Both the position numbers and the translations under genes were made by a program. A stretch of DNA of 64,000 bases from Hondaea fermentalgiana (Eukaryota; Sar; Bigyra; Thraustochytrida; Thraustochytriidae): positions 161,337 through 225,336 of the forward strand of contig NPFB01000009.1 of assembly GCA_014084085.1 (NCBI GenBank). Reading direction: 5' to 3'. Under the pieces are notes generated by a model that saw nothing but the letters and a program-made list of their open reading frames with translations, was not told the origin of the DNA and ran no database searches. Shown here in pieces: positions 4,616 to 61,536 of the stretch (position 1 is the first letter of the stretch; each line of letters starts with the position of its first letter).

Positions 4616-4694
4616 GCGGGCGGCCTTGGCCTCGCCTCGGGCCGGGCCCTCTGTGCTGTGCTGCGCTGCGCTGCCGCGCTGGCCCGCGTCGCGC

Positions 4695-4983: not shown

Positions 4984-5868
4984 TCGCTCGAAGCCTAGTT
5001 TGTGTGAAAGTTTAATAATAGCGATGACGGACAGCCAAAATGTCATACGTGAAGTGGGCGATCAACCCTCTCAGCTCCATGAGTCTTCGTTTTCTTTCCA
5101 AAGGATGTTTCCTTTCCAAAGGATCTTTACTGGCAATAAGTAAGTTGCTGCTGGTTCCTTCGCAAAAACTTCTTTCCTGTCCAAGCGAGCCGTGTGCTGT
5201 TCGCCCCTATTGTCTGTCCCCTTTTGCTCTCCATCGCACGTCAGCTCATACCGTTTTCCCGCCAATGCTGGCAGGTATAGATACTAGATACGATAGGCAA
5301 GTGGAAACTACCAGCTTGGACTCCCAACCAACGCCTTCCCATGATGATTCACGGCACTCGCCGAGTGTGTCTCGCTGGTCCAATCGCCGTCGAGACAGTG
5401 CGAATTCTTTGCAGGCCGGCCTCCATCGCGGTCGATCGCGGAAGCCTCTCGCAGCCGCTCGTTGGCGTGGCTGTCCCGGCGCCCTCTGCGCAGTTTGCCA
5501 CGCCTCCGTTGGCCCCTCCTCCAGCATACTCGCGCTGCATCATCTGCTGGGCTGCTGCTCGAGCTTGTGCTCTTTCGGCACGAACTGGGCGCGGGGGAGG
5601 GCTGTGCAGAGCACCATCCTGCGAGGTCGCGGAGCGGAGTGGCGCTGAAGCGGACGCACGGGCCCCTGCGGAGGCAGCGTAGCGTGGCTTGCGTGGCTTG
5701 CGAGGCTTGCGAGGCTTGCGTGGCAGGAACGCTTGGCCAGCAGCAGCGCGTCTGGCTGGTGAACTCGACGTGCTCTGAGCAGCAGACCAGAACTGGACGC
5801 TGCGCGACGCACGAGCGAGGCCGGGTGCTGCTCGCTCGCGCGCGCACGAGAAGGGAGCAGGAGAGACG

Positions 5869-15040: not shown

Positions 15041-16372
15041 TCAGGCGAGATGGAAGACATGGTGCAGAATGAGCGCGGTGGAGAAGCCCGTGGCGCCGAC
15101 GGCACCAGCTCCGGCAAGACCCACAATGAAGGGTTTGATGCCGACACCACGCAGTGCACTTGCCGAGGTACTGAGACCAACACCGGCCATGGCGGTACCC
15201 AAAAGGTAGTGCGATCCAAGTTCGTTGCCAACAAACTTGGTCAGGGTCTTCCAGGTGTCAGCGTCAAAAACACCAAAGGCAGCCGCGGTGTCGCTTGCAA
15301 GCGTCATGTCGCCAACAGTACGGAGAGCACTCATGCCCACAAAGCCAGCGACGAAACCAGGAAAGTACTTTTTCACCTCGGCAAAGGATGGGACGAGGCT
15401 TGATGGAGCCTCAAGGGTAGCGGCGGCTCCAGGGTTTTCCTTTGCGGCAGCAGCAGCAGCCAACTGGCTTTCGCTACGCGCTGTCATGTAGGTCAAGCCA
15501 GGGATCACACCAGCCAGAAAAAGATTGCGCGTGAGCTTTGTGACGGTTGCCACCTTGAGAACCTCTTCGTCGCCAAAGACAGTCGAGTAGGAGAGGGCGC
15601 AGCCAATGACCTGGCTCGTGTCATGGACGCTGAGTCCAAGGGCAATTCCAATAGCATGGCTCGAGGGAATAATGGCGTGCGCAACATAAGGGTAAACAAG
15701 CATGCCGATGGTGCCGAAAGCGACAACGTTGGCGACGGCAAAGCTGGTGTCCTGCTGCGAGGCCTTGATGGCGGGCGAGAGAGCCGTAATGGCCGTGACA
15801 CCGCAAATGGACGTACCGGCGGCAATGAGGGAGCTCATCTTGGCCGGAAGACCCATCTTGTTGCCAAGCCAGGGGATAAAGGTGAGGCCGACGCCAATGC
15901 TAGTCACGACGGCTGGCAGGCCAACGAGGCCGGTGGTGACGAGGTCAACAGCACTGAGCTTGGCGCCGACGCAAACGATACCAGCCTGAAGGACGGGCTT
16001 GGTGGCGAACTTGATGCCGTCCTCGAGCTGCGAAGGCACGCCAACGGTGTTTTTAATGGCCATGCCGAGCAGGATGGCGACGGGAATGCCTGAAATGGGA
16101 CTCGCGCCCGAGATGCCCTGCAGGGCCAGCAGGCCTTGGCCCAGGTACTCTGCGCCCATGAAGCCTCCCTGCATGACTACGGCCGAAGCCGCGACGCCCG
16201 GCGCGAGCTTGGCGACGGAGCTCTGGGCCCGCGCGGCGCCGGGCAGGCGGCCTCGTCGGTGCTGCTCATCGTCGCTCTCAAGTCTCGCGCCGCAGTCGAG
16301 CACGGTCTGCACGCGCGCAAGGGCGCGCGAGTCCAGGCCGCGTCTCCTCGCGAGTCCGCGCGCGGCGAGCAT
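15041..16372 (-). CDS. YeiH/UPF0324-family membrane protein (putative sulfate exporter family), organelle-type leader
   Basis: This 443-residue polytopic protein carries the UPF0324 (YeiH/YadS) signature AAGTSICGVTAITALSPAIKA plus NVVAFGTIGMLVYP and LGLSVHDTSQVIG, which are typical of the bacterial family. The family is annotated as putative sulfate or anion exporters; the true substrate is uncertain. Compared with bacterial members of ~350 residues it has an Arg-rich, acid-poor N-terminal leader (MLAARGLARRRGLDSRALARV) that could target a mitochondrion, and an Ala-rich insertion at about residues 300-325. The family is mainly bacterial, so transfer from bacteria is a reasonable inference. 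It is convergent with YdcZ-like copy 2 and has no introns. Confidence 0.88.
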   Translation of the reverse strand: MLAARGLARRRGLDSRALARVQTVLDCGARLESDDEQHRRGRLPGAARAQSSVAKLAPGVAASAVVMQGGFMGAEYLGQGLLALQGISGASPISGIPVAILLGMAIKNTVGVPSQLEDGIKFATKPVLQAGIVCVGAKLSAVDLVTTGLVGLPAVVTSIGVGLTFIPWLGNKMGLPAKMSSLIAAGTSICGVTAITALSPAIKASQQDTSFAVANVVAFGTIGMLVYPYVAHAIIPSSHAIGIALGLSVHDTSQVIGCALSYSTVFGDEEVLKVATVTKLTRNLFLAGVIPGLTYMTARSESQLAAAAAAKENPGAAATLEAPSSLVPSFAEVKKYFPGFVAGFVGMSALRTVGDMTLASDTAAAFGVFDADTWKTLTKFVGNELGSHYLLGTAMAGVGLSTSASALRGVGIKPFIVGLAGAGAVGATGFSTALILHHVFHLA

Positions 16373-17192: not shown

Positions 17193-19515
<2,323 letters not shown>

Positions 19516-44553: not shown

Positions 44554-47500
44554 ATGATTCTCCCTCTCCCAGAACGTGCACTCAACAGTTTGGGTACTTG
44601 GTCTTCGTTGCCAGATTCACAAGAGGTCGATAGAAATGCAAACCTGAAGCCATCGAATCCACACAGAACTTTTGAGAGAGATGCTCGTCTAAATCATCAG
44701 CGAAGAGCGCGGAAAGTATATACACAAAGGTCCGTTCTTGCTACGTGGGCATCAACTTCACTGTCAGTGCGACGAATCATTATTGTGGCCCTTGTCGCTA
44801 TGTATTGTGCTGTAGGCGTATTGGCTCAGGCGCCGGCTCCGACGCCGCAGCCAACGCAATTGCCCACACAATTGCCGACTGATTCTCCGACAGCCTTTCC
44901 GACTGATTCCCCGACAGTCTTTCCAACTGATTCTCCGACGGCCTTTCCGACTGATGCCCCGACGGCCTTTCCAACTGATTCTCCAACAGCCTCTCCAACT
45001 GATTCTCCGACAGCCTTTCCGACTGATGCCCCGACAGCCTTTCCGACTGATTCTCCAACAGACTCACCGACATACGCTCCAACTTCAGCGCCTCGCCTAA
45101 TAATCCTCAACCCTGAAACGCTTTCCGTGATTGAGGGCGGCCAGAATCGGTCATACTATATTACGCTTGATTACACGCCAGTCTGGGAAGGTGATGATGT
45201 GTGCATCTCCATGTCTGTCGGTGGACTCGATCCCGAGGCACGTGGGATCCATGTACTGCCAAACAGTACTTGTTTCACTGCCTATGGCGAGACGCAGCAG
45301 GTCAACGTACGGATTGAAAGAGACTTTATTAAGCGGGGAGCGGCAGAGACCTTTACAATCGACCACGCTGGCGTCGACGAGGCTGCAGTCCTCACAGTCC
45401 CCGTCATTGACGTTGACCAAGCATCTGTAGTCCTTTCTGCGGTATCTGGGACGATCCAACAAGGTGTCCTCGGCGGTGCCGGAGCCCAGGATGTGCAATA
45501 CAATGTCTCGCTCGATAGTATACCAACACAAGATGTGACGGTGACCTTTGTCGCAGACAAGAGCTCTCTCGTGGATATCACTCCTTCCTCTCTCGTCTTT
45601 CGGCAGGGGGAAGATCCAAGCGCACAGACTGTAACCATCTCTGCTGTTGACGCATCGACCGTGGATGATGTCGTCTCTGACAGTGTTCGCATCAGTCACA
45701 TAGTCGAAAGTCTCGATGCCGTATATGACGAAATCAGTGTGGCAGACTTTGTGGCCGACTGGTACGGTGCCGAGCACCCGAGAGTCATCATCTCGGCATC
45801 ATCTATTGAGGTGGTCGAAGGAGATAGCGACACTGTCAGCCTTTCCATCAAGCTCGGTATTCCCCCGAGCTCAGGATCAATGAGTATTTCGCTCGCTAGT
45901 ACGGAGCTCGACGGTATACCCTTAGACTTCGCCCCAACCCAGCTTACTTTCACAAGCGCCAACTTTGACACTGTACAGGCCGTCGACGTGAGTTTTCCAC
46001 GAGACTACGAATACCGAGGTGCGGAAATCAATGCTCTACAACTGAGTTTCGCTGTGGACGCCGGCAGTGCTGCCCCTTATGCAGACGAAACTCTTGTCGA
46101 GTATTGGCCTTCATCGATTGTAACAGTCAATGTTCGAGAGGTTGATCTAGCAAGCGTCTCTCTTTCTGCAATCACGGGCTCAGTGCAGCAGGGAACCATT
46201 GGCGGCGGGGGCGCGGTGGACGCTACGTACAATATCTCACTTTCCAGTATTCCGATTGCTGACGTGACAATTTCCATCGCTGCCGATCAACCTCGTCTCG
46301 TGGACATCACGCCGTCCGAAATCACCTTTCTTGCGGATCAAAGCCCTTCTCCGGCGCTCGTTACCGTATCTGCAGCAGACGCAGAGCTGGTCTCGAACGT
46401 GAGCTTCGACATTCTTCGTCTTTCTCATACTGCGTCCAGCACGGATCTCGACTTTGATGCTGCCGACATTCCCGATTACGTCGCAGATTGGTACGGTGCG
46501 GCTCGACCCAAGGTCGTCATGTCTCTTGCGTCCCTCGCATTCGACGAGGCATCTTCTGGTGAAACTTTTTCTGTCAAGCTTGGAGCTCCGATCACAAGTG
46601 GAACCGTGACCGTAACATTGGCGAGCAGTACGCTTACAGATGGATCCGAGCTCACCGTCTCTCCAGCCTCCCTGACCTTCACTTCTGCCAACTGGAACGC
46701 AGCGCAAGCAGTCCAGATTACGTATCCTCAAGACAACATTTATCGTGGAGATGCTGACACCAGTTTTACGATCACTGTCGATGCTACAGGTGGACAACCT
46801 TACGCAGATTCTCAGTACGTCATCTTCTACCCGTCAGCTACGATTGCTGTTGACGTCCATGAGGTCGATCAAGCTGCTGTTTCGCTTTCCGCTGTTGCTG
46901 GGGACATATATCAAGCTACGGTTGGCGGCAGTGATGAAGTCGATGTTACGTATACCATCAACCTTGCCAGTACGCCCACGGAGGATGTGACGGTCAGCAT
47001 NNNNNNNNNNNNNNNNNNNNNNNNNNNNNNNNNNNNNNNNNNNNNNNNNNNNNNNNNNNNNNNNNNNNNNNNNNNNNNNNNNNNNNNNNNNNNNNNNNNN
47101 ACGTATACCATCAACCTTGCCAGTACGCCCACGGAGGATGTGACGGTCAGCATCACTCCTGATGACACGTCACTGGTCAGCGTCTCGCCTGCATCGGTCA
47201 CATTCGCGGCGGATACGAGCCCTTCAGCTCAGACAATCACGGTCTCGGCAGCCGATCCGACCGTAGTGACAAACGTGACGTCTGCTTTGCTGACGCTCAG
47301 TCACGCCGCGACAAGCTCCGACAGCTTTTACAACGGTATCGCGATTCGTAACTTTGTCGCAAACTGGTATGGATCGCCTCGACCAAGAGTTCTAATGTCG
47401 AGATCTGCGCTTGAGATCGATGAAGACTCCTCAACCGGCGATAGCTTCACTGTCAAGCTTGCTGTGGAGCCTACAAATGGCGATGTTACCATTTCGCTGG

Positions 47501-50500
47501 TCAGCAGCGCTCTCAGCGATAGTTCAGAGCTGACCATTTCTCCGGCGTCGCTTACGTTTACGTCTTCTGACTGGGACACTGCGCAGACGGTTCAGGTCAC
47601 GTATCCCAAAGATGATGTATATCGGGGAGAAGCCGACACTAGCTTTACGATCGCAGTCAGTGCAAGTGGAAGCGAGCCATACGCAGACTCTCAGTACGTC
47701 ATCTACTATCCATCAAGTTCGATAGCAGTCGACGTCCACGAGGTCGATCAAGCTGCTGTTTCGCTGTCCGCTGTTGCTGGGGACATCTATCAAGCTACGG
47801 TTGGCGGCAGTGATGAAGTCGATGTCACGTATACCATCAACCTTGCCAGTACGCCCACGGAGGATGTGACGGTCAGCATCACTCCTGATGACACGTCACT
47901 GGTCAGCGTCTCGCCTGCATCGGTCACATTCACGGCGGATACGAGCCCTTCAGCTCAGACAATCACGGTCTCGGCAGCCGATCCGACCGTAGTGACAAAC
48001 GTGACGTCTGCTTTGCTGACGCTCAGTCACGCCGCGACAAGCTCCGACAGCTTTTACAACGGTATCGCGATTCGTAACTTTGTCGCAAACTGGTATGGAT
48101 CGCCTCGACCAAGAGTTCTAATGTCGAGATCTGCGCTTGAAATCGACGAGGGTTCCTCAGCAGGAGACACATTTACCGTCAAGCTCGCGGTGGCCCCAAG
48201 CAATGGCGATGTTACCATTTCGCTGGTCAGCAGCGCTCTCAGCGATAGCTCAGAACTGATTATCTCTCCGACGTCGCTTACGTTTACGTCCTCCGACTGG
48301 AATACCGCACAAACGGTTCAAGTCACGTATCCCAAAGATGATGTATATCGAGGAGAAGCCGACACTAGCTTTACGATTGCAGTCAGTGCTAGTGGAAGCG
48401 AGCCATACGCAGACTCTCAGTATGTCATCTATTATCCATCAAATTCGATAGCAGTCGACGTCCACGAGGCTGATCAGGCTGTCGTGACACTCTCGTCCAC
48501 AACCGGGACGATCCGGCAAGGCGCTATTGGCGGCGCTGGTGCCGTTGATGCTACTTACACCGTCAACCTCGCAAGCGCGCCGACGCAAGAAGTGACGATT
48601 AGCATCATCGCGGACCAAGCCTCACTCGTCACCATTTCACCAGACATACTGACTTTTCCTGCAGGTCAAAGTCCATCCGCTCAAATCGTTACAATTTCAG
48701 CGGCTGATGCCACGGCAGTGACCAATGTAACCTCTGCGCTGTTAACATTGAGTCATACAGTGACGAGCGGGGACACCTCTTACGATGGCGCCGTGGTCAA
48801 TGACTTCGTTGCTAACTGGTACGGTTCTGCCAGGCCCAGAGTCTCCGTCTCGACCTCTTCAATAGACATTGTTGAGGGGGCAAGCTCGCCCGCAAGCATG
48901 TCCGTCAAGCTTGATGTTGAGCCCAGTGACGGCCCCGTAAACCTCACGCTCACCAGCTCCTTGCTCGCAGATGGCTCAAGCCTCGACGTAAGCTCGGAGC
49001 TCCTTGTGTTTACAACCGAGAACTGGAGCTCCGAACAGGTCGTAGAGGTTCAGTATCCCCGAGACTTTGTGTACCGTGGTGCCAACACCTTCTCTTTCCA
49101 ACTTGAACTCGCCGTAGTCGAAGGCAGCAGCGAGCCGTACATGAACGAGTCTTACGTTCTCTTTTGGCCAGACTCCACGATTGATGTCACTGTTCGCGAG
49201 GCCGATCAGGCATCCGTGACCATTTCTGACCTTACCGGCACCATTCGCCAAGGCGCAATCGGTGGCGCGGGTGCTCAAGATGCAACATACACCATGTCGT
49301 TGACAAGCGTCCCCGAGGACAACGTCACGATCAGCATTACGCCGGACAATGAGTGGCTCGTGGACATTACACCAAGCGAAATTGTCTTCTCAGCTGGTGT
49401 CGCACCGCCTGATGTGCTCGTGACCGTAGCTGCCAAGAGCGCGACGCAAGTTGCAAATGTCAGCTTTGACGTTCTTGTAGTATCGCATAGTATTTCCACG
49501 ACAGACTCTAACTATGCCGCCATCGACATTCCCGACTTTGAGGCAAGTTGGTATGGTGCAGCACACCCACGGGTCGTTCTTTCGGCAGCCGCAATCGATG
49601 TTGTGGAGGGCACTGAAGTGGCAAGCATATTTTACGTCAAGCTTGGAGTTCAACCAAGCAGTGACGACGTTAGTGTTGATTTTGCAAGCAGCATCCTCGA
49701 AGATGGGTCCGCTCTCTTGATCGACCCAACCTCTGTGAGCTTTAGCATGACGGACTGGGATACGGAGCAGCCGGTGCGGGTCACCTATCCCCGAGACTAC
49801 GAGTACCGTGGAGCGGAAGTCACCTCGTTCCAGGTTCTACTCAGCGTCGGAGCAGGCAGTGGTGAGCCTTATGCTGATGCACAATACGTTCAATTTTGGC
49901 CTACCTCTCAGGTCGAGGCTAGAGTTTATGATGCCGACCTTCCTGAAATTGTCCTTTCTGAACAGACAGTGTATGTGACAGAGAATGGGCAGTCGGCCCA
50001 ATACGAGCTCGTTCTGAATTCACGACCTGCGCAGGATGTGAATGTGAGCATTGCCAATCCAAACTCGGATTTGGTGGGTCTCAACACGACCTTGGTCGTC
50101 TTCACCAGCGCAGACTGGGACATTCCGCAAACGATCCGTGTCGTTGCAATCGAGTCCGAGGATGACAACGCCTACGACCTTGCTTCCGCCATCACCATCC
50201 TTCAACACAGCGCCGCGAGTAATGACACTTCTTACGATGGTGTCTCTGCGCGCTTTTCCCCATCGCAATTGCTCATTGTGCGAAGGTACGAAGACCCGAC
50301 CATCCCTAACTGTCCTGGAGGAACCTATCTCACGGGCGAAACAAGTCTCGAGTGCGTTGCCTGTCCCGCAGGCTACAAATGTCCGGTCGAGACCAATGAC
50401 CCGGCGCCCTGCTTGCTTGGTTCCTTTAGTATTGGGGCCCAGGTCAATTGCACGCTCTGTCCGAGGGGCATGCGGTGTCCGCAAACAAACTCGAACTCGA

Positions 50501-53500
50501 TGGACGCGTGTGCGGCGGGCACGTATTCCATCGAAGGGCAAGCCGACTGCACGATTTGTCCCGCGGGCAAACAGTGTCCTTCGACGGATTCAGATGTTGT
50601 TCAGGACTGCCCGTCTGGGTCATATTCTCTCGCAGGCTCACAAACATGCACAGTTTGCCCTGCCGGGAAAGCCTGCCCTGATCCCACCGGGGTCACAATC
50701 CATACCTGCGAGCCTGGCACCTATACCGAGACTGGCATGACTTCATGTGTGGCGTGTCCTGCAGGCTATGCATGCACTGACGTCACGCGTGCGCCCATTG
50801 AGTCCGAAGCATGCGAGCCTGGAACCTTTGCCGGACCCGAATTGGGCAACACCTTTTGCACGGAGTGCCCCGCTGGCTACTCGTGTCCCTACACGGACGA
50901 CGACACGATAATTGCTTGTGCTTCCGGAGAATACTCTGCGCACGGTAACTCGACATGTACCCAGTGCCCTGCGGGCATGGACTGTACACCGGAGAGTGGT
51001 CCTGGCAACGTTTGCCAAGAAGGAACATACTCTCTTTTGGGAGACGCAAATTGTCATGATTGTCCAAGGGGACACAAGTGCCCGACGAATTCGGCCCAAC
51101 CGGTCGAATGTAACATGGGATCCTACGCAGCAACGACGCGACACACCGCATGCTCAGCATGCCCTGCCGGGAGCTTTTGTCCCACCAACGCAACCGAGTC
51201 ACCGCAGATTTGTCCTGCAGGAACATACAGTTACGAAGGTGCAACAAGCTGCGAAGACTGCGACGCGGGCTACTATTGCGAGGAAGGAGCCGTCAGCCCA
51301 ACTCCTGTAAACGACGAATGTGAAGCTGGCACCTACTGCCCTTCTGGTGGGCCCCAATTTAATTGTCCTGCTGGGTCGTATGGAACAAAAACAGGTGGAG
51401 TCTCCGCTGATGATGCTTGCGATCCATGTCCCGCTGGGTACTATTGCCCTGAGGGTTCAACTGATGCGACGAAGATCGAATGCACACCGGGATACTATTG
51501 TCCGCAAGGAACAAGTGTGGAGACGCAGTATCCGTGCTCAGCAGGATACTACAATCCAGATGGCGGAAGCGTTGCAGGCGGTGCTTGCCTTATCGTTCCG
51601 GAAGGTCGGTACGCGTACGCAGGGTCGAGCCAACACTATCCATGCCCTTCAGGATACTACTGCCCAGAGGGCACAACGCACGAGCACGAGTTCCCCTGCG
51701 CGGGCGGAACGTATTCGGGAATTGCAACGGAGCTTAAGTCTCAGGATGACTGTCTTACCTGTACCGTTGGTCATTACTGCCCAAGCGGCTCGATCACGCC
51801 TACGGCATGCCCAGTGGGCAGCTACAATCCTACAACGGGAGGCTCTTTGCTAACCAATTGCCTTGCCTGTCCAGCAGGATACACGTGTCCCAATACAGGC
51901 ATGAATGACTATACGCAGATTCGGTGTCAGGCGGGTCATTATTGCCCTTCTGGAAACTATGACATTGACGCGTTTCCATGCCCCGCTGGAACGTATACAG
52001 ATGACGATGACCTTCAAAATGCGCAAGCCTGCACACCTTGCCCTCCAGGCTATGCTTGTCTCGAGGGTACCGGCGGAAGCGTCGCAAAGCTCGACTGTGC
52101 GGTGGGTCACTATTGCCCCGAGGGAACCACTTACACAACGCAGTACGATTGCCCGAGAGGATCGTATACCGTGTCGACAAGTCTCACGGACGTCGACGAG
52201 TGCACTCCATGTCCTGCGGGAAGTTACTGCGAAGGTGGGCTTGGCCGTATCGGTGCAATTGGAGACGTTGATGGCCATTGCAGCCCCGGTCATTATTGCC
52301 CCGCCAGCACGTATGAGCCAAACCAGTTCCCGTGCCCAGACGGTACCTACACGGCAAGCGTGAGCCTCGAGAGCGAGGATCAATGCACGCCATGCGATTT
52401 GGGTCATTATTGTTTCGACGCTGCCACCTTTCCAGTCCCGTGTCCCGCGGGCTCTTATGCGAATGAGACCGGTGAAAGCGACGACTTGTGTACTACGTGT
52501 CCGGCGGGCTACGAGTGCCCCGAAGGTACAATTGACCCCATCCCCTGTCAGCCAGGCAACCAGTCAGCCTCGGGTCAGGATGCTTGCGACACGTGTGAGG
52601 CTGGGTACTTTTGCAAGACCACCGCGACGACGCGCGAGCTCATGCATGCTCAGCCTTGCAGTCCAGGACTCTATTGCCCAGAAGGTGTGGCGATCGAGCC
52701 TAGCTTTGCTCAGCACGCTTGTCCTGATGCGCACTATTGCCCACAGGCTATTCCAGCGCCGCTAGAGTGTCCTGTCGGAACTTACAACCCCGTGACGGGC
52801 CAGGGGTACCTCGAGAACTGCACGGCCTGCGACCCTGGTTACTACTGTATTGTGCAGAGTAACAGTGTTACTGGCGAGTGTGATCCTGGACACTATTGCC
52901 CTGCTGGCTCGACCGGCCCGATGCAATTTCCTTGTCCTGCTCGCACCTACCGCACAACTTCGCGCGGTGAGTCGGAGAATTCATGTTCCATTTGCACCAG
53001 TGGATACTATTGTGAGGTGGCGACTGTTGATCCGGTCATCTGTCCAAAGGGCTACTATTGCTTGACAGCCTCGTCCGCACCGAAAGCGTGCCCGATTGGG
53101 CGGTATGGCAACTTCACGGGCCTTACCAGTGGCGCTGCCTGTACGCCTTGCCCCGGTGGCTATTACTGCGATGGCCAAGGTCTAACGCAGCCCACAGACC
53201 TCTGCGATGAAGGCTACTATTGCATGGAAGGCTCGTATACCTCGACGCCCAATGCGGCGGGGACAAATTGGACGTACGAGCTGGGCGATGAGCTCGAGTC
53301 GGCTTTGGTGTTTGCTGACATTGGTGACATTTGTCCTCCCGGCTACTTTTGTCCTCGAGGTTCAGCAATGCCTATTGCCTGCGATCCTGGAACTTTCAAC
53401 TCCGTCGAAGGGGCAACTTCCAGTGATGCCTGCCTCGACTGTACCCCGGGCCACTACTGTGCGGGTGCAGGCAATGCTGTTCCAACCGGCCTTTGCGAAC

Positions 53501-56500
53501 CTGGATACGTGTGCCCTGGAAGGTCGGAGGACCCGACCGATGAGATTGCGCTGCCTGGGACCTTTGCCCCTGAAGGCTCAGCCGCGGCCTCCAACTGTGC
53601 TCATGGGACATTCAATTCGGAGTTCGGCAAGGCGAACTGCACATTGTGCTATCCAGGATTTTACTGTCCAGAAACGGGTCTCGAGTCCCCAGAAGAATGC
53701 CCTGAAGGCATGTATTGCCCAGAGGCCTCGATAAGCCCAAGTCGTTGCCCAGAAGGAACCTACTCTAATAGCACACAACTTGGCGCCGCGTCTCAGTGTA
53801 CGCCATGCGACCCAGGCAGCTACTGCGCCTCGAATGGACTTGTCGAACCTTCGGGATTTTGTGCGGCAGGCTACTATTGTCTCCTCAGTTCAACAATGCG
53901 GATTCCCTCGAATGACGCCGGCTTTGGAGGCGTTTGCCCGGCAGGCTACTATTGCATGGAAGGAACAGCTTCTCCAGAACCTTGTCCCCTTGGAACCTTT
54001 GGGACGAAGGAGCAAGCCAAGTCGCTCGATGACTGCAAGCCATGCGAGCCCGGCTCGTACTGTGGCGAGCGTGGGCTGACCGCCCCTTCGGGTCCCTGCG
54101 CAGCTGGATACTACTGCAACGGTACGTCGTCCGTCTCAAGCCAGACACCTGACCTGATCTGCCCCACTGGATTCCGGTGCCCTGCTGGTACAAGTCACCC
54201 GATTCGCTGCGACGAAGGCACGTACGCCCCGGATAAGGGCGCCTCTAATTGCACGGTATGCCCAGGGGGTTACTTTTGCGATGGCATCGAGACGACCCTC
54301 GCCTTTGTCTGCCCAGCAGGATCCTATTGCCCCCCTGGAACGGGAGCGAGCCCGCCACGATGCCCACCGGGGACCTTTAGTACTGCATTGGGTCTCAACG
54401 ATATCTCATTGTGTAGCATCTGCCCCGCAGGACAATTTTGCGCGGACTATGGGCTTCTCAACTCGTCGGGAATGTGCGATCCGGGCTATGTATGCGATCC
54501 CGGCAGCAAGACACAGTATGGCGGAGGTGTCGAGTGCTACGACGCTGATCTTTTGCCGTATGAATGCCCTCGTGGACATTACTGTCAGTATGGTCGAGCG
54601 CTCCCTTGCCCAATTGGTACCTACAACCCGCTTGTAGGTGAGGGCACGCGTGAAAGCTGCCGTCCATGCGAAGCCGGTCGGTGGTGCTTCGAGGAGGCCA
54701 CGGCATACCAAGACGATTTCATGTGTCCTACGGGTCACTACTGCGAATCGTCCACTGCCTTGCCCATTCCGTGTCCCGCTGGTACTTTTCGCGACGAGAC
54801 CGGAGCGGCCAGCGCCGCGGATTGCGAGATTTGTCCCTCAGGTGAGTATTGCCCCGGTGATGCTGCTTTATCACCCATCCTCGACCACAATGGAAGCACT
54901 GTCGAAGCATACTGGAACGCGAGCTCTGGTTCGAGCTTTGCTATTCCTTGTCCAGCGGGGACCTTTTGTACAGGTGGCAATGTGGAGCCTGAGTTATGTC
55001 CAATCGGCTTTGCGGCGTCGTCCCCTGGCATGAGCATTACACGTGGGTCTATCGCTGCGGCATGCACACCGTGCCCGGGCGGTACGCATGGGACAGATCC
55101 TCTCCGTCTCGAGTGCGCCACCTGCGACCCTGGTTACATTTGCGTGCACGCAGCCTCGACGCCGCGTCCGCTCGACGTCACAACGGAGGGAGGATATATT
55201 TGTCCCGTGGGTCACTACTGTCCTGCGGGGAGCACGACCACGCTTCCGTGTCCACCGGGGACCTTTGCAAATGAGACTGGGGCGTACAGTGAAGAAATGC
55301 ATTGCCTCCCTTGTGCTTCGAACACCTACAATGAGCTTTGGGGTGCAGCGGGCTGCAAGCCATGCGCGTCGTCGTCATCGTCCGAGTCCGGATCAACCGC
55401 TTGCAATTGCCAGGGACGAAACCGAGCTTTCGAGGCAAGTACTGGTAAATGTCTTTGCGTTCCGGGTTTTGAGGCTTTCGACCAGACATCGGGATTCACG
55501 TCCAAGATGGCCGTTGACGAGGACGGAACAGAAGATTGCCAGCCCATCACCTATGAACGCTGTGCTCTTGGCGAGGTGCTCAATGCAGATGGTCTATGTG
55601 TATCCGCAGATGCCCAGTGCGCCACCGAGTGCGCGGATCTTTTAGGGACGGGTCGCTTGAGCACGGTACTCGGCGTTTGCGACTGTGATGGGGCTTTGCC
55701 GCTCGAACAAACGTGCGGTGTCGAGTGCCGTGCAAATGCGACAGATGGCTATCTCGTCGCAGGGTCGCCAAAGTCGCTCACATTGAGTGATGGGACAAGC
55801 ACAGACCTTTCCGAGTTGGAGGGATTCTATGGTGTGCCGTCTTGCGCCAGCACCGATGCCTGCGCTGTCCTTGGGTGCGAATTTGGTAACGAGGGCTCCG
55901 CGGGTTGTGACTACGATCTTCCAGCGGTAATTTCCTCGCTTGAAGCCGATTCGGAGCGACGTGTGCGCCGTCAGCGTCGCCGACTCGTAAATGAGACCGA
56001 CAGTGACTCAACCATGATTGCTCACCCGGTTCTTTGTATCAACACCGGCGACACCTTGGTCTTCAAGCTCGAAGCAGACGAGGACGATGCATCGGGTCTT
56101 CCTGCGTATCCAGTGTACAAGAAGGACTCTCTTCTCAACACTAACCCAGACTTTGACTATGGGCACTTTCGCTACCTGGAGGGCGCGCCATACGTTCGCG
56201 TCTTTGCCTTCACCTTCCAAAGTTCAGGCATGTACGTTTTCGGATCGTCTCGAGACCTTAGCACTGAGCTAATCGTGTCGGTGCAGCCCAAGGGCAGCGC
56301 CTGCCCGACCGAAGCTGCGATCATGCCGCGATCGACGGCAACTCTATTCGCGCTCGGAGCCAAGCGGAGCGAAACAATTCTTCTGGAGCCCGACTGGTCT
56401 CTGCTCGGTACCTTGCTTGGTGGCATGGCGGGTCTTGTGGTTCTCTTGCTCACTGTGGTGTACTGTTTTCGAGAATTTGCTCTGGGAACGGTGCGCATTA

Positions 56501-59500
56501 TTCCAACGTACCGCAACAAGAACCGACTCGGGGACGCGAAGAAACTGCTCAAGGGAAAGAAGCGCGGCTGGATCAAGTCTCGTAGTGTGGCGCCAATGGC
56601 AAAGGTCTTTACACCCGGGGACGCGGCCAAAGAGGGCCTGCAGCCTCTGGGCCATGCTCGATGGGCGGAGGAAGATGTTGACCCCCGCGAACTTGTGGAG
56701 CGCATGGTCTCAAACCACGAGGAAGTTCACGAGCACCTCAACCGTCACGATGCCAAGGTCGAGACCTTATTTGGAAACCTTCAAGTGGAGTCGCAAGAGC
56801 TCAAGGAAATGCTCAAAGCCATCAAGGAAGACGGCGTGCGTACCATTGGCGGGCAACCTCTCCTGCCAGGCTTTGGAGCTCGCCTCGGTGACGACAATGA
56901 TGCAAGCGAAGGTGATGATGGTGACACTGATCTTTGGTCCACCCCTCGGGACGCTCTCGATTCCGACAGGTCCGGCTCTCTTTCGGAACTACACCGTAAG
57001 GAACAGCAGCTCCTCGAGAAATCGTGGCAAGAATCCGCCGAGCGCGAGCTCGAGGAACTCAACACAAAACTTGATGAGGAAGCCGAGGAAGCTATGCTCG
57101 AGGAACAATTGAAGCAAGAAGAGCAACTTGAGGATCTAGAGCGCATGCTGCTGGAACGAGAAGATATCAGCGATGAGGAGCGCGAGCGCATCTTGCGAGA
57201 CTTTGAGCGTGACCAGGAAATGCTGCGTGATACTCTCGATCTTGAGAAGCGGCGCCAGCAAGAGGACTTGAAGAACCGTCTCGCAGAGAGGAATCTTCGA
57301 AGCTACCGTGCTACCAAGCGGCGCCAGCGCTCTGAACGCGAAGAAGAGGAGCAGATGCAAACTGGAAAGGATGGTGCAAAGTCACAAAAGGCCTCGGGAC
57401 CAGCTGGCAGCGCCGTTGTCAATAAGGAGGCCGAGGCGCGCAAAATGGAGCAGGTGGCCAAGTTGCTTGCGATCCAGGAGGAGGCCGAGCTCGAGGAGCT
57501 TGATGTGGAGCTCCAGCGCGAACGCGTTCAGGCCGAGGCAGACCTTATGGACGACTCCAAGAGCATGGCACTGTCTGGTCTCGACGAGGAGGCGCGTGCC
57601 AAGCTTGAGCGAGAAATGATCATCATGCGTGCCTCCTCCGAGCAGAATGCCGAAGACCATGCGCGCAAACAAAAGGAAGAGCTGCGCGAGCGTCTCCTGA
57701 AGCAGAAACGCGATGAGACCGCCCAGGCAGTCTCGCGTGCGCGCAAGAGCATCGTTTTGGATAGTAGTAAAGAGGGCGGATCCACGTCTGAAGACGCACA
57801 GGGGGAATCTCAAGACAAGGGCAAACCTGACCAATCAGCGGATATTTCACAGTCGCCTAGCGACGAGGCCCTCAATAAGGTTCTCAATGAGCTCGCAGAG
57901 GAAGAGGTCGAAGCCAAGGTTGAGATCGAAGCTGCGCTCGAGGAGGACGCCCGTGAAGAGACAAAGCATCTCCAGAAGGAGATGGCGTCCGCTCTGGCGA
58001 AGGCCAAAGAGACAAACAACGAAGAGAGCGAAGAGGCAAAGACTCTAGTGACCTCGATCCGCGAAGACTATAAGCGGAAAATTGACCAACTCCAGGAAGA
58101 AACAGCAGCAAAGCGCAAACAGCAGTACGAGGCGCTCAAGTCGCGGCTCAAGAACCGCCGTCGCGCACGCGTCAAGGAGATCGTCCAAGATGAAGATGTC
58201 TCACCCGATCTCTTGGAAAAGGCACTCGACGAGCAGGACAGCGATGCGGACATCAGACTCGAAATGGAATTGCAGGAACGCCACAAGGAGGATGTTGGTC
58301 GCCGTCTCGAGCTCGACAAGCGCGAGGCCGAATTGCGACGACGCGAGGCCGAGGTTGCTCTTCGTCTCTCCGCTGAGCGCGAAGGCAAAGACGCCGAGGC
58401 CGAGGTCAAGAGGCTTCGCGAGTCCCACGAAGCCGCGCTTGCCACTTTGGGACAATCGCAGGCGCAAATCAGGGACAAACAGCGGGACGCGCTCAAACGT
58501 CGCGCCCAGGAGCGCAAGGAGAAACGTGAGCGGGAGGAGGCTGCCAAGGCCGCAGAAGCTGCCGCTAAGGCAGAGGCAGAGGCAGAGGCCGAGGGAAGCG
58601 AAGCTCATTCGGGCGCAGAAGGCTCTCCCGGCGACGCGGAGAGCGGTACTGTCGAGGGGTCGAAGTCGAGCCCCGGAAAGAGGGAAGGTCGCGCATCGGC
58701 GCTGTGGGAGAATGCTGTGGACCGTATTTCCGTCAAACTCACGCGGCGCATCGCTGAAGCGCGCGCTCTCGAGGAGGAGAAGGCCCGGCTCGGCGCCGAG
58801 CACGAGAAAGTCATTGAAGAAATGCGAAAGCGGCAAGAAGAAGAGCGCAAGCGTCTCGAGGAGGAAATGGAGGCCGCTCGACAGAAACTTCTCCTCGAAC
58901 GTAAACGCGAGGAAGCTGCTGCCATGGAACACGCAGATGAGGAGCGCCGAAGGCGCGAAGAGGAGGCTGCGCTGTCCGCAAAGACGGCGCAGGAGCTCGA
59001 AGCCATCAAAGAGCAGCACGAGCGCGACTTTAGCGCAAAACAGGAGCAAGAGCGACTGAAGCGCGAAAAACAGCGCGAGAAGGTGATGAAGAAGCTGGAA
59101 GAAAAGAAGGCCCGCAAACGCCAGCTCCTGGAGCGTCGGCATCAGCAGACCATGAAGAAGCACGAAGCCAAGGCCGTCGAGCAGACCGGAGCGCCACAGA
59201 TGTCGCGTGAGGACGAGATGCGGCAAGAAAAGGCTGCCATATCGCAGCTCATGAAGCACGCCTCGCCCGATGGCATCGAAGCCAGCGAGCTTTATCGAGG
59301 AATTGAGAAGATTCTCGAGCCGCGTCACACTCGCGAAAAGCTCGAACTTTCTCAACGCCAGTTTCAACAGCGCACCCAGCAAATCAAGACGAGATTCGCC
59401 GAAGTTCAGAATGAAAAGCACGAGCGCAAGAAGGCGATCATTCAGTCAGGTGCGAGCCTAGATGAGATTGAAAAGCTCGAGGCTGAATGCAAGGAGAAAC

Positions 59501-61536
59501 TTCGCGTGATTGAAGACGAAGTCACCCAAAATGTCGAAGAGGCACACAAGGTGGAGCAAGACGAGCTCACGCGGCGACATGCGCAGGAGATCGGCAAATA
59601 TGTGTCCAAGTACTCGCGCAAGCCCAAGGAGACAATCCAACAAGATGCTCAGGTCGAAAGCACGGAACTGCGTGCCATGCTTGACAAGGAGCGCGAATTC
59701 CGACTTCGCGAAATCCAAAACGAGCGTGCTGCAGCCGAATTTCGTGCGCGCGAAGCCTTCGACAAGGCAATCTTGGATCTGGAGCGCGGTCTTCGAGACT
59801 ATCGCGCGGAACATGCAGGCGATACAGCGGCGGTCTTTGAAGCTCGAAAGGCAAAGCTTCTGCAAAAGCAGATGACCTCGCACGATATCGTCCTGAAGAC
59901 CGCTCGCGACGACACCCAGAGGCGCGAGATGCGCGCCGGCTTTGAGTTGGAGCGCGAAAGACTTGCCACGGCGATTCGTGCCGAGCACTTACGTCAAGTG
60001 AAGAGTGTCGAGGCACGCGTCGAGAGGCTCAAGGCGAAGTCGGCACGGTACTACAGGCGTGTCCTCGACGCGCGTCTCCGCGACATCGCAGATGTGACCA
60101 CGCGCAAGGTCATGATCATGGATGATGCCTTGCGACGTATGTTTGCGCAACGGAACGCCAAGGTGGAGGCAATTATGGCATCTCCCTCGGAACCAGGATC
60201 TCCTGGGTCGCCCTTCAGTGTGGGTGGGGCGGACGCACTTTACTACGAGCAAGCTTTCCAAGATTCTCCCCCGCAAAATCTGGCCGAACTTCAGGCGCTA
60301 CACCGCTCCGAGTCAATGCGAAGGATCTCGGCTCTCCAAGGTACCTCTGCCACCGCCGCTGTCGCTGGCGTGGCGCTATCCTCGATGCCATCGCCATCCA
60401 CCGCTGCTCTCGAGAAAAAGCTAGAAGCGATCGAGTTGCTCTTGCAGTCCATGCGAGGTATATCGGCGTCTTCGAGTGGAGAAACAGAGACAAGAGGAGG
60501 GGCTCAAGTTTCTCATCAGAGTGCACCGCAGTACACAGATCCTCTCGACGCAGGTTTCACTACCTCGTCAGAAGTGGTTGAAATTGCTTCGGAGGACTTG
60601 TTGCCCACAGAATTGTCGCGACTTCGTCTTGGAGATCGCATTCTGCGCGTCCTTGGACTCCAAGGTCAGGTCAGTCTGCGCGCTGCGCGCTCTGTTCCCT
60701 CGAACCAGGCGCAGGCCTCTGCCTTCAAACAGTCCTTTAGCTGGGACGAGTCGGAGCGGAGACTTTATCTGCGTGTGGAGCGCTTCACCAATGTCGGTGA
60801 CTTTGTCTTGGTACTCGTTCATTGTTTGGCGCACATCAAGGTGCACAAGACGGCGTCCGCCTTTGTTGACGCGGACCCTATCTTTATTCAGGAGTTCCAC
60901 GCTCAGCTGCGGTCGGTGAACAATGCACTGATTGGCTTCGCGGGTGTTCTCGACGATGAAGATACCGATGACGATGGTCGGGATGTTTCGAGCACGGGTA
61001 AACAGGCATCATCTGACGGCGCGGCTGTCGTTCAAGACGCCTCGAAGACGCGCCTACCGGCCCGCCTTTCGGCGTACTCTGCCTTTTCAGACGGAACATC
61101 GGACGATGGAGGGTCCGCTGTTCTCAAACTTTTGCGAGACCTCAAGCTTGACAGAGTCAATCTCGTCGTTGAGAGCGAGGCCTCGTCCAGCGCAGCCTTG
61201 GTTGCTCCTAAAAGTGAGCATGCAATGCATACCAAGCTCAAGGCGCAGGTCTCCGAGCTTGAGAAACGTATCGGGGATGCGCGTGAAGAACTTCGGACCG
61301 TTGAGGAAAGAATTGCCACAATGCAAGGACGTCTCGATTCAAACGAGGAAGGCATTGACAAGGAAGCGTTGGGAAATGAGCTCGAAACTTTGCGATCGAA
61401 CAAGGAGGGTGAGCATCATCGATTGGAGAAACTAAGTCAGCTTTTGCAAGAGCGCAAGGAGCAGCTGGCACATTTCTTGAATCAAAATGAGGATATGAAA
61501 GACGCAGTATCTGCTGGGCTTTTGCAAGATCGCTAG
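44554..61536 (+). CDS. Giant single-pass membrane protein: PT stalk, Calx-beta/Ig-like modules, GCC2/GCC3 repeats, cytoplasmic coiled coil
   Basis: This is one intronless ORF of 5,660 codons (a 100-N gap lies inside). A hydrophobic signal or anchor (about 75-91) follows a 74-residue leader. Eight PTDSPTAF-type octamers come next (about 102-178). Residues 181-1905 form alternating Ig/Calx-beta-like modules with recurring VxEG, LTFTS, YPRDxxYRG and WYG motifs. Residues ~1918-3640 are cysteine-rich GCC2/GCC3 (ephrin-receptor-like) repeats of CPAGYYCPEGT type. A basic RRVRRQRRR site lies near 3803. Residues 3826-3916 resemble a cupredoxin-like domain. A membrane span lies at 3949-3971. The cytoplasmic part is Glu/Arg/Lys coiled coil (4146-5200) plus a C-terminal domain (5333-5660). 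A cell-surface adhesion or sensing role is an inference; no orthologue is known to me. Confidence 0.9.
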   Translation: MILPLPERALNSLGTWSSLPDSQEVDRNANLKPSNPHRTFERDARLNHQRRARKVYTQRSVLATWASTSLSVRRIIIVALVAMYCAVGVLAQAPAPTPQPTQLPTQLPTDSPTAFPTDSPTVFPTDSPTAFPTDAPTAFPTDSPTASPTDSPTAFPTDAPTAFPTDSPTDSPTYAPTSAPRLIILNPETLSVIEGGQNRSYYITLDYTPVWEGDDVCISMSVGGLDPEARGIHVLPNSTCFTAYGETQQVNVRIERDFIKRGAAETFTIDHAGVDEAAVLTVPVIDVDQASVVLSAVSGTIQQGVLGGAGAQDVQYNVSLDSIPTQDVTVTFVADKSSLVDITPSSLVFRQGEDPSAQTVTISAVDASTVDDVVSDSVRISHIVESLDAVYDEISVADFVADWYGAEHPRVIISASSIEVVEGDSDTVSLSIKLGIPPSSGSMSISLASTELDGIPLDFAPTQLTFTSANFDTVQAVDVSFPRDYEYRGAEINALQLSFAVDAGSAAPYADETLVEYWPSSIVTVNVREVDLASVSLSAITGSVQQGTIGGGGAVDATYNISLSSIPIADVTISIAADQPRLVDITPSEITFLADQSPSPALVTVSAADAELVSNVSFDILRLSHTASSTDLDFDAADIPDYVADWYGAARPKVVMSLASLAFDEASSGETFSVKLGAPITSGTVTVTLASSTLTDGSELTVSPASLTFTSANWNAAQAVQITYPQDNIYRGDADTSFTITVDATGGQPYADSQYVIFYPSATIAVDVHEVDQAAVSLSAVAGDIYQATVGGSDEVDVTYTINLASTPTEDVTVSXXXXXXXXXXXXXXXXXXXXXXXXXXXXXXXXXXTYTINLASTPTEDVTVSITPDDTSLVSVSPASVTFAADTSPSAQTITVSAADPTVVTNVTSALLTLSHAATSSDSFYNGIAIRNFVANWYGSPRPRVLMSRSALEIDEDSSTGDSFTVKLAVEPTNGDVTISLVSSALSDSSELTISPASLTFTSSDWDTAQTVQVTYPKDDVYRGEADTSFTIAVSASGSEPYADSQYVIYYPSSSIAVDVHEVDQAAVSLSAVAGDIYQATVGGSDEVDVTYTINLASTPTEDVTVSITPDDTSLVSVSPASVTFTADTSPSAQTITVSAADPTVVTNVTSALLTLSHAATSSDSFYNGIAIRNFVANWYGSPRPRVLMSRSALEIDEGSSAGDTFTVKLAVAPSNGDVTISLVSSALSDSSELIISPTSLTFTSSDWNTAQTVQVTYPKDDVYRGEADTSFTIAVSASGSEPYADSQYVIYYPSNSIAVDVHEADQAVVTLSSTTGTIRQGAIGGAGAVDATYTVNLASAPTQEVTISIIADQASLVTISPDILTFPAGQSPSAQIVTISAADATAVTNVTSALLTLSHTVTSGDTSYDGAVVNDFVANWYGSARPRVSVSTSSIDIVEGASSPASMSVKLDVEPSDGPVNLTLTSSLLADGSSLDVSSELLVFTTENWSSEQVVEVQYPRDFVYRGANTFSFQLELAVVEGSSEPYMNESYVLFWPDSTIDVTVREADQASVTISDLTGTIRQGAIGGAGAQDATYTMSLTSVPEDNVTISITPDNEWLVDITPSEIVFSAGVAPPDVLVTVAAKSATQVANVSFDVLVVSHSISTTDSNYAAIDIPDFEASWYGAAHPRVVLSAAAIDVVEGTEVASIFYVKLGVQPSSDDVSVDFASSILEDGSALLIDPTSVSFSMTDWDTEQPVRVTYPRDYEYRGAEVTSFQVLLSVGAGSGEPYADAQYVQFWPTSQVEARVYDADLPEIVLSEQTVYVTENGQSAQYELVLNSRPAQDVNVSIANPNSDLVGLNTTLVVFTSADWDIPQTIRVVAIESEDDNAYDLASAITILQHSAASNDTSYDGVSARFSPSQLLIVRRYEDPTIPNCPGGTYLTGETSLECVACPAGYKCPVETNDPAPCLLGSFSIGAQVNCTLCPRGMRCPQTNSNSMDACAAGTYSIEGQADCTICPAGKQCPSTDSDVVQDCPSGSYSLAGSQTCTVCPAGKACPDPTGVTIHTCEPGTYTETGMTSCVACPAGYACTDVTRAPIESEACEPGTFAGPELGNTFCTECPAGYSCPYTDDDTIIACASGEYSAHGNSTCTQCPAGMDCTPESGPGNVCQEGTYSLLGDANCHDCPRGHKCPTNSAQPVECNMGSYAATTRHTACSACPAGSFCPTNATESPQICPAGTYSYEGATSCEDCDAGYYCEEGAVSPTPVNDECEAGTYCPSGGPQFNCPAGSYGTKTGGVSADDACDPCPAGYYCPEGSTDATKIECTPGYYCPQGTSVETQYPCSAGYYNPDGGSVAGGACLIVPEGRYAYAGSSQHYPCPSGYYCPEGTTHEHEFPCAGGTYSGIATELKSQDDCLTCTVGHYCPSGSITPTACPVGSYNPTTGGSLLTNCLACPAGYTCPNTGMNDYTQIRCQAGHYCPSGNYDIDAFPCPAGTYTDDDDLQNAQACTPCPPGYACLEGTGGSVAKLDCAVGHYCPEGTTYTTQYDCPRGSYTVSTSLTDVDECTPCPAGSYCEGGLGRIGAIGDVDGHCSPGHYCPASTYEPNQFPCPDGTYTASVSLESEDQCTPCDLGHYCFDAATFPVPCPAGSYANETGESDDLCTTCPAGYECPEGTIDPIPCQPGNQSASGQDACDTCEAGYFCKTTATTRELMHAQPCSPGLYCPEGVAIEPSFAQHACPDAHYCPQAIPAPLECPVGTYNPVTGQGYLENCTACDPGYYCIVQSNSVTGECDPGHYCPAGSTGPMQFPCPARTYRTTSRGESENSCSICTSGYYCEVATVDPVICPKGYYCLTASSAPKACPIGRYGNFTGLTSGAACTPCPGGYYCDGQGLTQPTDLCDEGYYCMEGSYTSTPNAAGTNWTYELGDELESALVFADIGDICPPGYFCPRGSAMPIACDPGTFNSVEGATSSDACLDCTPGHYCAGAGNAVPTGLCEPGYVCPGRSEDPTDEIALPGTFAPEGSAAASNCAHGTFNSEFGKANCTLCYPGFYCPETGLESPEECPEGMYCPEASISPSRCPEGTYSNSTQLGAASQCTPCDPGSYCASNGLVEPSGFCAAGYYCLLSSTMRIPSNDAGFGGVCPAGYYCMEGTASPEPCPLGTFGTKEQAKSLDDCKPCEPGSYCGERGLTAPSGPCAAGYYCNGTSSVSSQTPDLICPTGFRCPAGTSHPIRCDEGTYAPDKGASNCTVCPGGYFCDGIETTLAFVCPAGSYCPPGTGASPPRCPPGTFSTALGLNDISLCSICPAGQFCADYGLLNSSGMCDPGYVCDPGSKTQYGGGVECYDADLLPYECPRGHYCQYGRALPCPIGTYNPLVGEGTRESCRPCEAGRWCFEEATAYQDDFMCPTGHYCESSTALPIPCPAGTFRDETGAASAADCEICPSGEYCPGDAALSPILDHNGSTVEAYWNASSGSSFAIPCPAGTFCTGGNVEPELCPIGFAASSPGMSITRGSIAAACTPCPGGTHGTDPLRLECATCDPGYICVHAASTPRPLDVTTEGGYICPVGHYCPAGSTTTLPCPPGTFANETGAYSEEMHCLPCASNTYNELWGAAGCKPCASSSSSESGSTACNCQGRNRAFEASTGKCLCVPGFEAFDQTSGFTSKMAVDEDGTEDCQPITYERCALGEVLNADGLCVSADAQCATECADLLGTGRLSTVLGVCDCDGALPLEQTCGVECRANATDGYLVAGSPKSLTLSDGTSTDLSELEGFYGVPSCASTDACAVLGCEFGNEGSAGCDYDLPAVISSLEADSERRVRRQRRRLVNETDSDSTMIAHPVLCINTGDTLVFKLEADEDDASGLPAYPVYKKDSLLNTNPDFDYGHFRYLEGAPYVRVFAFTFQSSGMYVFGSSRDLSTELIVSVQPKGSACPTEAAIMPRSTATLFALGAKRSETILLEPDWSLLGTLLGGMAGLVVLLLTVVYCFREFALGTVRIIPTYRNKNRLGDAKKLLKGKKRGWIKSRSVAPMAKVFTPGDAAKEGLQPLGHARWAEEDVDPRELVERMVSNHEEVHEHLNRHDAKVETLFGNLQVESQELKEMLKAIKEDGVRTIGGQPLLPGFGARLGDDNDASEGDDGDTDLWSTPRDALDSDRSGSLSELHRKEQQLLEKSWQESAERELEELNTKLDEEAEEAMLEEQLKQEEQLEDLERMLLEREDISDEERERILRDFERDQEMLRDTLDLEKRRQQEDLKNRLAERNLRSYRATKRRQRSEREEEEQMQTGKDGAKSQKASGPAGSAVVNKEAEARKMEQVAKLLAIQEEAELEELDVELQRERVQAEADLMDDSKSMALSGLDEEARAKLEREMIIMRASSEQNAEDHARKQKEELRERLLKQKRDETAQAVSRARKSIVLDSSKEGGSTSEDAQGESQDKGKPDQSADISQSPSDEALNKVLNELAEEEVEAKVEIEAALEEDAREETKHLQKEMASALAKAKETNNEESEEAKTLVTSIREDYKRKIDQLQEETAAKRKQQYEALKSRLKNRRRARVKEIVQDEDVSPDLLEKALDEQDSDADIRLEMELQERHKEDVGRRLELDKREAELRRREAEVALRLSAEREGKDAEAEVKRLRESHEAALATLGQSQAQIRDKQRDALKRRAQERKEKREREEAAKAAEAAAKAEAEAEAEGSEAHSGAEGSPGDAESGTVEGSKSSPGKREGRASALWENAVDRISVKLTRRIAEARALEEEKARLGAEHEKVIEEMRKRQEEERKRLEEEMEAARQKLLLERKREEAAAMEHADEERRRREEEAALSAKTAQELEAIKEQHERDFSAKQEQERLKREKQREKVMKKLEEKKARKRQLLERRHQQTMKKHEAKAVEQTGAPQMSREDEMRQEKAAISQLMKHASPDGIEASELYRGIEKILEPRHTREKLELSQRQFQQRTQQIKTRFAEVQNEKHERKKAIIQSGASLDEIEKLEAECKEKLRVIEDEVTQNVEEAHKVEQDELTRRHAQEIGKYVSKYSRKPKETIQQDAQVESTELRAMLDKEREFRLREIQNERAAAEFRAREAFDKAILDLERGLRDYRAEHAGDTAAVFEARKAKLLQKQMTSHDIVLKTARDDTQRREMRAGFELERERLATAIRAEHLRQVKSVEARVERLKAKSARYYRRVLDARLRDIADVTTRKVMIMDDALRRMFAQRNAKVEAIMASPSEPGSPGSPFSVGGADALYYEQAFQDSPPQNLAELQALHRSESMRRISALQGTSATAAVAGVALSSMPSPSTAALEKKLEAIELLLQSMRGISASSSGETETRGGAQVSHQSAPQYTDPLDAGFTTSSEVVEIASEDLLPTELSRLRLGDRILRVLGLQGQVSLRAARSVPSNQAQASAFKQSFSWDESERRLYLRVERFTNVGDFVLVLVHCLAHIKVHKTASAFVDADPIFIQEFHAQLRSVNNALIGFAGVLDDEDTDDDGRDVSSTGKQASSDGAAVVQDASKTRLPARLSAYSAFSDGTSDDGGSAVLKLLRDLKLDRVNLVVESEASSSAALVAPKSEHAMHTKLKAQVSELEKRIGDAREELRTVEERIATMQGRLDSNEEGIDKEALGNELETLRSNKEGEHHRLEKLSQLLQERKEQLAHFLNQNEDMKDAVSAGLLQDR
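44878..45075 (+). repeat. 24-bp tandem repeat encoding the PTDSPTAF stalk
   Basis: Eight in-frame 24-bp units encode octapeptides of DSPTAFPT type, with Ser/Ala and Phe/Val/Ser variants. PT-rich stalks are common between signal peptide and ectodomain in stramenopile surface proteins, and they are likely O-glycosylated. Confidence 0.9.
45409..49929 (+). repeat. Six tandem double modules of 723-732 bp (about 242 residues)
   Basis: Boundaries read from the recurring EVDQA-type segment fall at 45409, 46138, 46861, 47740, 48466, 49198 and 49930. Spacings are 729, 723, 879, 726, 732 and 732. The 879 includes the N gap and a 53-bp duplicate and becomes 726 when those 153 bp are removed. Each unit consists of a VSLSAxxGxIxQ...ANWYG half and a PRVxxSxxSIxxxEG...YYPSxxIxVDVHE half. 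Units three and four are nearly identical at the DNA level. Confidence 0.9.
47001..47100. other. Assembly gap (100 N) inside the giant gene, flanked by a 53-bp exact duplicate
   Basis: The 53 bases before the gap (46948-47000) are identical to the 53 bases after it (47101-47153). This suggests two contig ends that overlap rather than missing sequence. Confidence 0.95.
50309..55480 (+). repeat. Cysteine-rich GCC2/GCC3-type repeat array (about 1,700 residues)
   Basis: Dozens of units of about 35-60 residues follow the pattern CPAGYYCPEGxxxPxPCPAGTYxxxxGxxxxxxCxxC. They are diverged in DNA, so the array is old, unlike the adjoining Calx-beta-like modules. The end is marked by CNCQGRNR...GKCLCVPGF. 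Confidence 0.88.

Follow-up and report, generated by a model that had tools for sequence, protein, structure and literature searches.

Notch carries a Cys-rich repeat stalk, a single transmembrane segment (TM) and a basic cleavage loop within a juxtamembrane fold, and SVEP1 is a modular extracellular protein with ephrin-receptor-like repeats. Cupredoxins such as plastocyanin fold into a Greek-key beta-sandwich and bind copper through two His, a Cys and a Met, and zincins follow a helix-strands-helix order of secondary structure. Toxoplasma CRMPA and CRMPB, two cysteine repeat modular proteins (CRMPs), have nine TMs according to PMC9815656. Here we describe a giant gene in a 64,000-nucleotide stretch of DNA (the window) on contig C217 (541,080 bases) of the genome assembly of Hondaea fermentalgiana (36.0 Mb, 238 contigs), a thraustochytrid among the labyrinthulomycete stramenopiles. 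We propose, and regard as evenly poised, that its product belongs to a family of giant surface proteins, conserved in stramenopiles, which cross the membrane once and link an extracellular stalk to the cytoplasm, i.e., a surface-to-cytoplasm tether or receptor.

The open frame, its assembly gap and the deposited gene model

The open reading frame occupies positions 44554..61536 of the window on the forward strand, as do all features of the gene described below, and comprises 5660 codons as printed, read in the standard code with zero internal stops. Over the same span, stops number 113 and 240 in the other two forward frames, compared with 93, 189 and 231 in the reverse ones. The original prediction of an uninterrupted 17 kb frame thus holds with respect to a real, stop-free frame, but this frame crosses a 100-N assembly gap at 47001..47100. 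The 53 bases to the left of the gap are identical to the 53 bases to its right. Six anchors in the repeat units of this region are spaced by 243, 241, 293, 242 and 244 aa as printed, and by 243, 241, 242, 242 and 244 aa after collapsing the overlap together with the Ns (153 bp, 51 codons, in frame). Because of the identical flanks and the restored ~242-aa period, the gap most likely reflects an unmerged overlap, which would give a protein of ~5609 aa; a protein longer than 5609 aa by multiples of ~242 aa, with whole units missing at the gap, is possible.

Apart from the giant gene and its deposited copy, three protein searches yielded 22 homologs (P0004-P0025), and the 23-row comparison used throughout leaves out that copy (P0003) and a fragment (P0002). 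The homologs bear on whether the gap stitched two genes into one open frame by artefact or chance, as might be suspected from the 100 Ns inside the frame and from a deposited gene model that differs from it. We consider the likelihood of such a fusion to be close to negligible: the gap falls inside one repeat unit, between identical flanks whose collapse restores the period, and downstream of it a single alignment (48% over 4146 columns) shows P0004 to be collinear with residues 1541-5658, and two overlapping alignments show the same for P0005 and residues 1543-5660 (45% over 3536 columns, 1543-4986; 35% over 1567 columns, 4144-5660).

Contrary to the original claim, the length of the frame is not exceptional, since stop-to-stop frames of 11,046 and 10,214 codons also occur in the genome. 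The former (C173:347705-380842, forward strand) contains 100 Ns near its start, at 347810, and a single hydrophobic segment around residue 10413; the Ig-like unit of the giant gene matches it more weakly at three places, and its end looks PDZ-like by eye. In the latter (C179:71935-102576, reverse strand), seven strongly hydrophobic segments lie towards the C-terminal end. The supposed contrast with intron-bearing neighbours is weakened as well. When 10 further ORFs in the window were scanned with Pfam, five gave matches (E <= 0.001; P-type ATPase, HECT, MatE, YdcZ and Cons_hypoth698), each holding its domain(s) within a single frame, which is still compatible with introns elsewhere in these ORFs or in the other five. 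Two intact ORFs of the window adjoin each other, one matching DMT_YdcZ (13242-14801, forward strand; 3.4e-57) and one matching Cons_hypoth698 (15041-16372, reverse strand; 8.3e-56). Both are mainly bacterial families, and acquisition of the pair by gene transfer is possible. A second 100-N assembly gap of the window lies at 19157-19256.

The best protein match of the ORF is P0003, the deposited H. fermentalgiana protein of 5181 aa, named "SVEP1". It begins at ORF residue 220, a start that would remove the hydrophobic segment at residues 75-92, and omits five further ORF stretches as introns. Three of these five, in the Cys-rich part, were compared with P0004 and P0005, one of the remaining two spanning the gap, and showed identities of 31 and 32 of 68, 22 and 24 of 43, and 18 and 18 of 31 residues, respectively; in view of these identities, the three introns look spurious. 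Sushi, VWA and pentraxin domains had no Pfam match at E <= 0.1 in the giant protein, and identity with SVEP1 was dropped because these domains of that protein are missing. The public gene model is corrected accordingly, as both its name and its introns mislead.

Extracellular stalk and juxtamembrane domain

A hydrophobic segment at residues 75-92 (44776..44829; KD hydropathy 2.43) is likely a signal peptide or signal anchor following a 74-aa N-terminal extension, the start codon being provisional. It precedes Pro/Thr/Ser (PT) repeats at residues ~95-180 (44836..45093; PF04886, E 1.1e-11), which include a 24-bp tandem array at 44875-45061. Residues 181-1910 (45094..50283) consist of tandem ~242-aa units, whose six anchors lie 241-244 aa apart after gap correction. 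These units are apparently beta-rich and Ig/Fn3-like; they match fn3_6 (PF17766) at E 1.4e-13, and a search with the Ig-like unit found eight matching places within the giant gene, query counted. Calx-beta modules had originally been proposed for the ectodomain, but Calx-beta (PF03160) found no match in the giant gene at E <= 0.1 in the Pfam scan, fn3_6 being reported instead. In a genome-wide PF03160 search, six candidates were scored and five places matched, all outside the giant gene (two on C51 and one each on C214, C180 and, with a score under the cut-off, C3). Matches above the curated cut-off include C51:3266-3961, C214:147654-147971 and C180:90783-91151.

The GCC2/GCC3 (Ephrin_rec_like) repeats fared better. 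The stalk at residues 1915-3640 (50296..55473) contains 182 Cys, and 30 CxxCxxGxxC motifs occur within residues 1901-3660. PF07699 exceeded its curated cut-off at one stretch (24.6 vs. 23.1 bits; window 53557-53700, C217:214893-215036), although the same stretch scanned inside one long piece scored 19.2 bits, below the cut-off, over three stretches.

Beyond the stalk lies a cupredoxin-like juxtamembrane domain at residues 3770-3918 (55861..56307; core 3821-3918). The cupredoxin fold suspected at the outset is moderately supported by the structure model, but the 23-row alignment of the core contains no conserved His as a copper ligand, and a copper site in the core was excluded on this ground. 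The domain reached no Pfam cut-off (best E for A3 members 0.036, far below cut-off), and a PDB sequence search gave chance-level matches and none of significance. The polybasic sequence RRVRRQRRRL (residues 3802-3811; 55957..55986) is a candidate processing site according to motif counts and its location in a predicted loop (pLDDT <50) inside the predicted cupredoxin-like fold. Of the 23 proteins, 21 have RR(x)L ahead of the core, vs. 2 of 189 background ectodomain windows, and the stricter RRxL occurs in 18 of 23 vs. none of 189, suggesting that RRxL is probably a processing site of the family. The Hondaea genome contains Peptidase_S8 at seven places and presenilin at two loci above the family cut-off; P_proprotein, the kexin/furin P domain, was not found in it. 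Of the furin-type cleavage feature of Notch, the giant protein presents the motif and a predicted loop. Relatives of the juxtamembrane region in viral contigs were not confirmed by tblastn.

Membrane span, cytoplasmic tail and C-terminal domain

The membrane span placed by the original prediction near residues 3949-3971 is recovered as a transmembrane helix at 3950-3972 (56401..56469; hydropathy 2.39), and in all 23 rows the juxtamembrane core is present and directly followed by a hydrophobic segment. N-glycosylation sequons number 16 in residues 180-1910, 16 in 1915-3640 and two in 3641-3820, with none in 3821-3948 and none in the 1686-aa tail. This distribution, rich in the ectodomain and nil in the tail, fits a topology with the stalk outside and the tail inside.

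The tail had been described as a coiled coil of 1,690 residues. A long charged tail is indeed present, but clear heptads are confined to its last ~115 residues. The heptad test was a simple one, which could miss polar cores, and scored 28-residue windows as positive if they beat 95% of shuffles; positive windows made up 23% in residues 3990-4140, 0-16% in 4140-5200 and 75% of 12 windows in 5545-5640. Given the low proportion in 4140-5200, we refer to the main tail (residues ~4130-5200; 56941..60153), with its helix-favouring composition and weak heptads, as a charged, probably helical region, a more apt description than coiled coil. The C-terminal segment at residues 5545-5660 (61186..61533) is coiled-coil-like, with heptads and two long helices in the model. 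Tail length ranges from 1234 to 2769 aa among 12 proteins, Hondaea included, as expected of a spacer. The best-kept 50-residue block of the tail relative to nine distant rows (5375-5424, 29%) lies within the C-terminal domain.

This domain (residues 5327-5460; 60532..60933) corresponds to the globular-looking end noticed from the sequence (SFSWDES...VHCLAHIK) and is delimited by an AF2 model and a hidden Markov model (HMM). The AF2 model of residues 5268-5660 has a mean pLDDT of 68.4, with blocks of 85-95 over 5338-5457, 77 before and 54 after, and predicts one helix, three strands and two further helices, in that order. An HxxxH motif (H5423 and H5427; 60820..60834) lies on the second long helix, in a zincin-like position without the Glu. 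Of 17 rows, 15 retain the first His and all retain the second, and the slot after the first His is C, A, S or T in all 13 rows of A4, with no Glu in the other four of the 17 either. The HExxH motif of zincins was accordingly rejected. The nearly invariant C-terminal HxxxH and the RR-(x)-L before the core are newly recognised here.

Searches with the C-terminal domain returned no Pfam match over cut-off (A4 members, best E 0.047), no PDB sequence match at E <= 10 and no relatives in viral contigs and prokaryote genomes that tblastn confirmed, and the outcome of a fold search with its model was dominated by the coiled coil. Alignment to SprT by hhalign scored 23.3 over only 11-12 columns (probability 7.7%; 0.1% for the global alignment), relative to a maximum of 21.8 in 200 column shuffles; in earlier controls, 28 column shuffles reached at most 16.1 and nine unrelated E. 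coli proteins 15.5. The helix bearing HxxxH falls in register with the HExxH of SprT/zincin metallopeptidases, a similarity at the level of the motif only, and the predicted helix-strands-helix order of the domain resembles that of zincins, but the catalytic Glu is replaced by C, A, S or T. We give about one chance in three to the domain being a zincin-fold pseudopeptidase, which we treat as a lead rather than a finding.

Family distribution, possible roles and known systems

The named sources of the family are Hondaea, Ochromonas (P0010, taxon 2985) and 'GSChrysophyteH2' (P0019), the latter two being chrysophytes; P0005 bears an NCBI protein name. In a tree of core and TM, P0001, P0004 and P0005 group together (support 99/96), and 14 rows including both named chrysophytes form one group (96/95). 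P0007 and P0009 each align with the giant protein at 27%, over 4394 and 4333 columns, respectively. The C-terminal domain was detected by HMM (E < 1e-3) in 17 of 23 rows, including nine of 15 proteins outside HMM building. As P0011-P0025 were chosen by their core, only TM, motif and C-terminal domain count as independent evidence in these proteins. The rows without the domain (P0013, P0014, P0015, P0017, P0018 and P0025) end 248 to ~1458 residues past the TM. Cys residues before the core number 56-374 in 15 of the 23 gene models and 0-27 in the other eight, which start near the core. P0010, which bears an MMETSP (transcriptome project) name, is a single protein comprising core, TM, tail and C-terminal domain. 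That TM and C-terminal domain belong to one coding unit is thereby backed by homologs including that of Ochromonas, and homolog alignments support the receptor-like topology of GCC2/GCC3-type stalk, TM and cytoplasmic part that was originally proposed. Juxtamembrane and C-terminal queries each matched the Hondaea genome once and found no second copy.

At the level of sequence, the giant protein comprises a stalk of repeat modules and Cys-rich GCC2/3-type repeats, a TM and a long charged tail, with conserved domains outside as well as inside the membrane, and homologs whose models reach far enough preserve this order. This defines a giant surface protein family common to labyrinthulomycetes and chrysophytes, with two conserved domains, one juxtamembrane and one cytoplasmic, that reach no Pfam cut-off and have no significant PDB sequence match. 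We recognised no earlier description of the family in the literature searched, whose coverage excluded most subscription journals.

In the tether or receptor that we propose, the juxtamembrane domain would be a copper-less cupredoxin fold split by the RR(x)L-bearing loop. A subtilisin-type convertase may cut this loop while the two halves stay together, so that the ectodomain would form a stalk that is clipped yet still attached and could be shed or pulled away. As a spacer whose length is free to vary in evolution, the tail would present the C-terminal docking domain, and this HxxxH domain, possibly a zincin-fold pseudopeptidase, would face the cortex or flagellar cytoskeleton. A coupling of an outer scaffold to the cytoskeleton, as first envisaged, is possible.

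Alternatively, the protein could be a scaffold of the ectoplasmic net or bothrosome, special to labyrinthulomycetes. Its modular ectodomain is adhesin-like, and Hondaea belongs to the labyrinthulomycetes, which form such nets (PMC12221091), but section 9 and Table 1 of that paper contain no recognisable candidate; its screen, as described there, left out proteins with high-scoring homologs beyond the labyrinthulomycetes and could overlook the giant family. The chrysophyte relatives carry the same core, TM and C-terminal domain. To our knowledge, chrysophytes make no ectoplasmic net, and the occurrence of the family in them disfavours a net-only role, which we regard as improbable. A better fit is a function that thraustochytrids have in common with chrysophytes, for example attachment by surface or flagellum, or mechanosensing. 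Both groups make hairy flagella, and the two-sided membrane architecture would suit an anchor that, in zoospores and swimming chrysophytes, joins extracellular flagellar hairs (mastigonemes) across the membrane with the axoneme. Oomycetes are hairy swimmers too, yet no oomycete or diatom was among the named matches of the three protein searches, which is not proof of absence, and the thraustochytrid proteome paper (PMC12221091) names another putative mastigoneme protein. We therefore consider a dedicated hair anchor unlikely, albeit worth retaining, and continue to prefer the broader tether or receptor.

The giant protein resembles SVEP1 in being modular and extracellular with ephrin-receptor-like repeats, but lacks sushi, VWA and pentraxin domains and adds a TM and a giant cytoplasmic tail. 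With CRMPs it shares large size, modularity and ephrin-receptor-like cysteine repeats, and PMC9815656 lists these repeats and, for some CRMPs, a coiled coil among their domains, which would accord with an apicomplexan-type CRMP acting in secretion or invasion. However, the two Toxoplasma CRMPs have nine TMs in that source, compared with one after the stalk here, and they differ from a protein with a cupredoxin-like domain, a tail of 1234-2769 aa and an HxxxH domain. A 4,505-codon frame of the same contig (C217:46388-59902, forward strand), Cys-rich in places and with eight hydrophobic segments towards its C-terminus, is a better CRMP-like candidate, and we find it very improbable that the giant protein is a CRMP. 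Notch is similar in its long Cys-rich repeat stalk, single TM and basic cleavage loop in a juxtamembrane fold, but the giant protein has a predicted cupredoxin-like fold instead of the HD fold, and EGF, LNR and ankyrin had no Pfam match at E <= 0.1 in the three pieces of it that were scanned. Rather doubtfully, the protein might even be a non-animal, Notch-like force-gated receptor, in which pulling on the stalk would separate the halves of the split cupredoxin-like domain at its convertase-clipped RR(x)L loop and the HxxxH tail would be released or re-set, possibly by presenilin. If so, the principle of the cleaved-heterodimer receptor would have been invented independently in stramenopiles. 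The conserved RR(x)L makes a cleaved-receptor mechanism outside animals cheaply and decisively testable. As CRMPs differ in TM count, and Notch agrees in layout and in the notion of a cleavage loop but not in domains, we assign the giant protein to a new family that would function in the manner of a modular tether or receptor.
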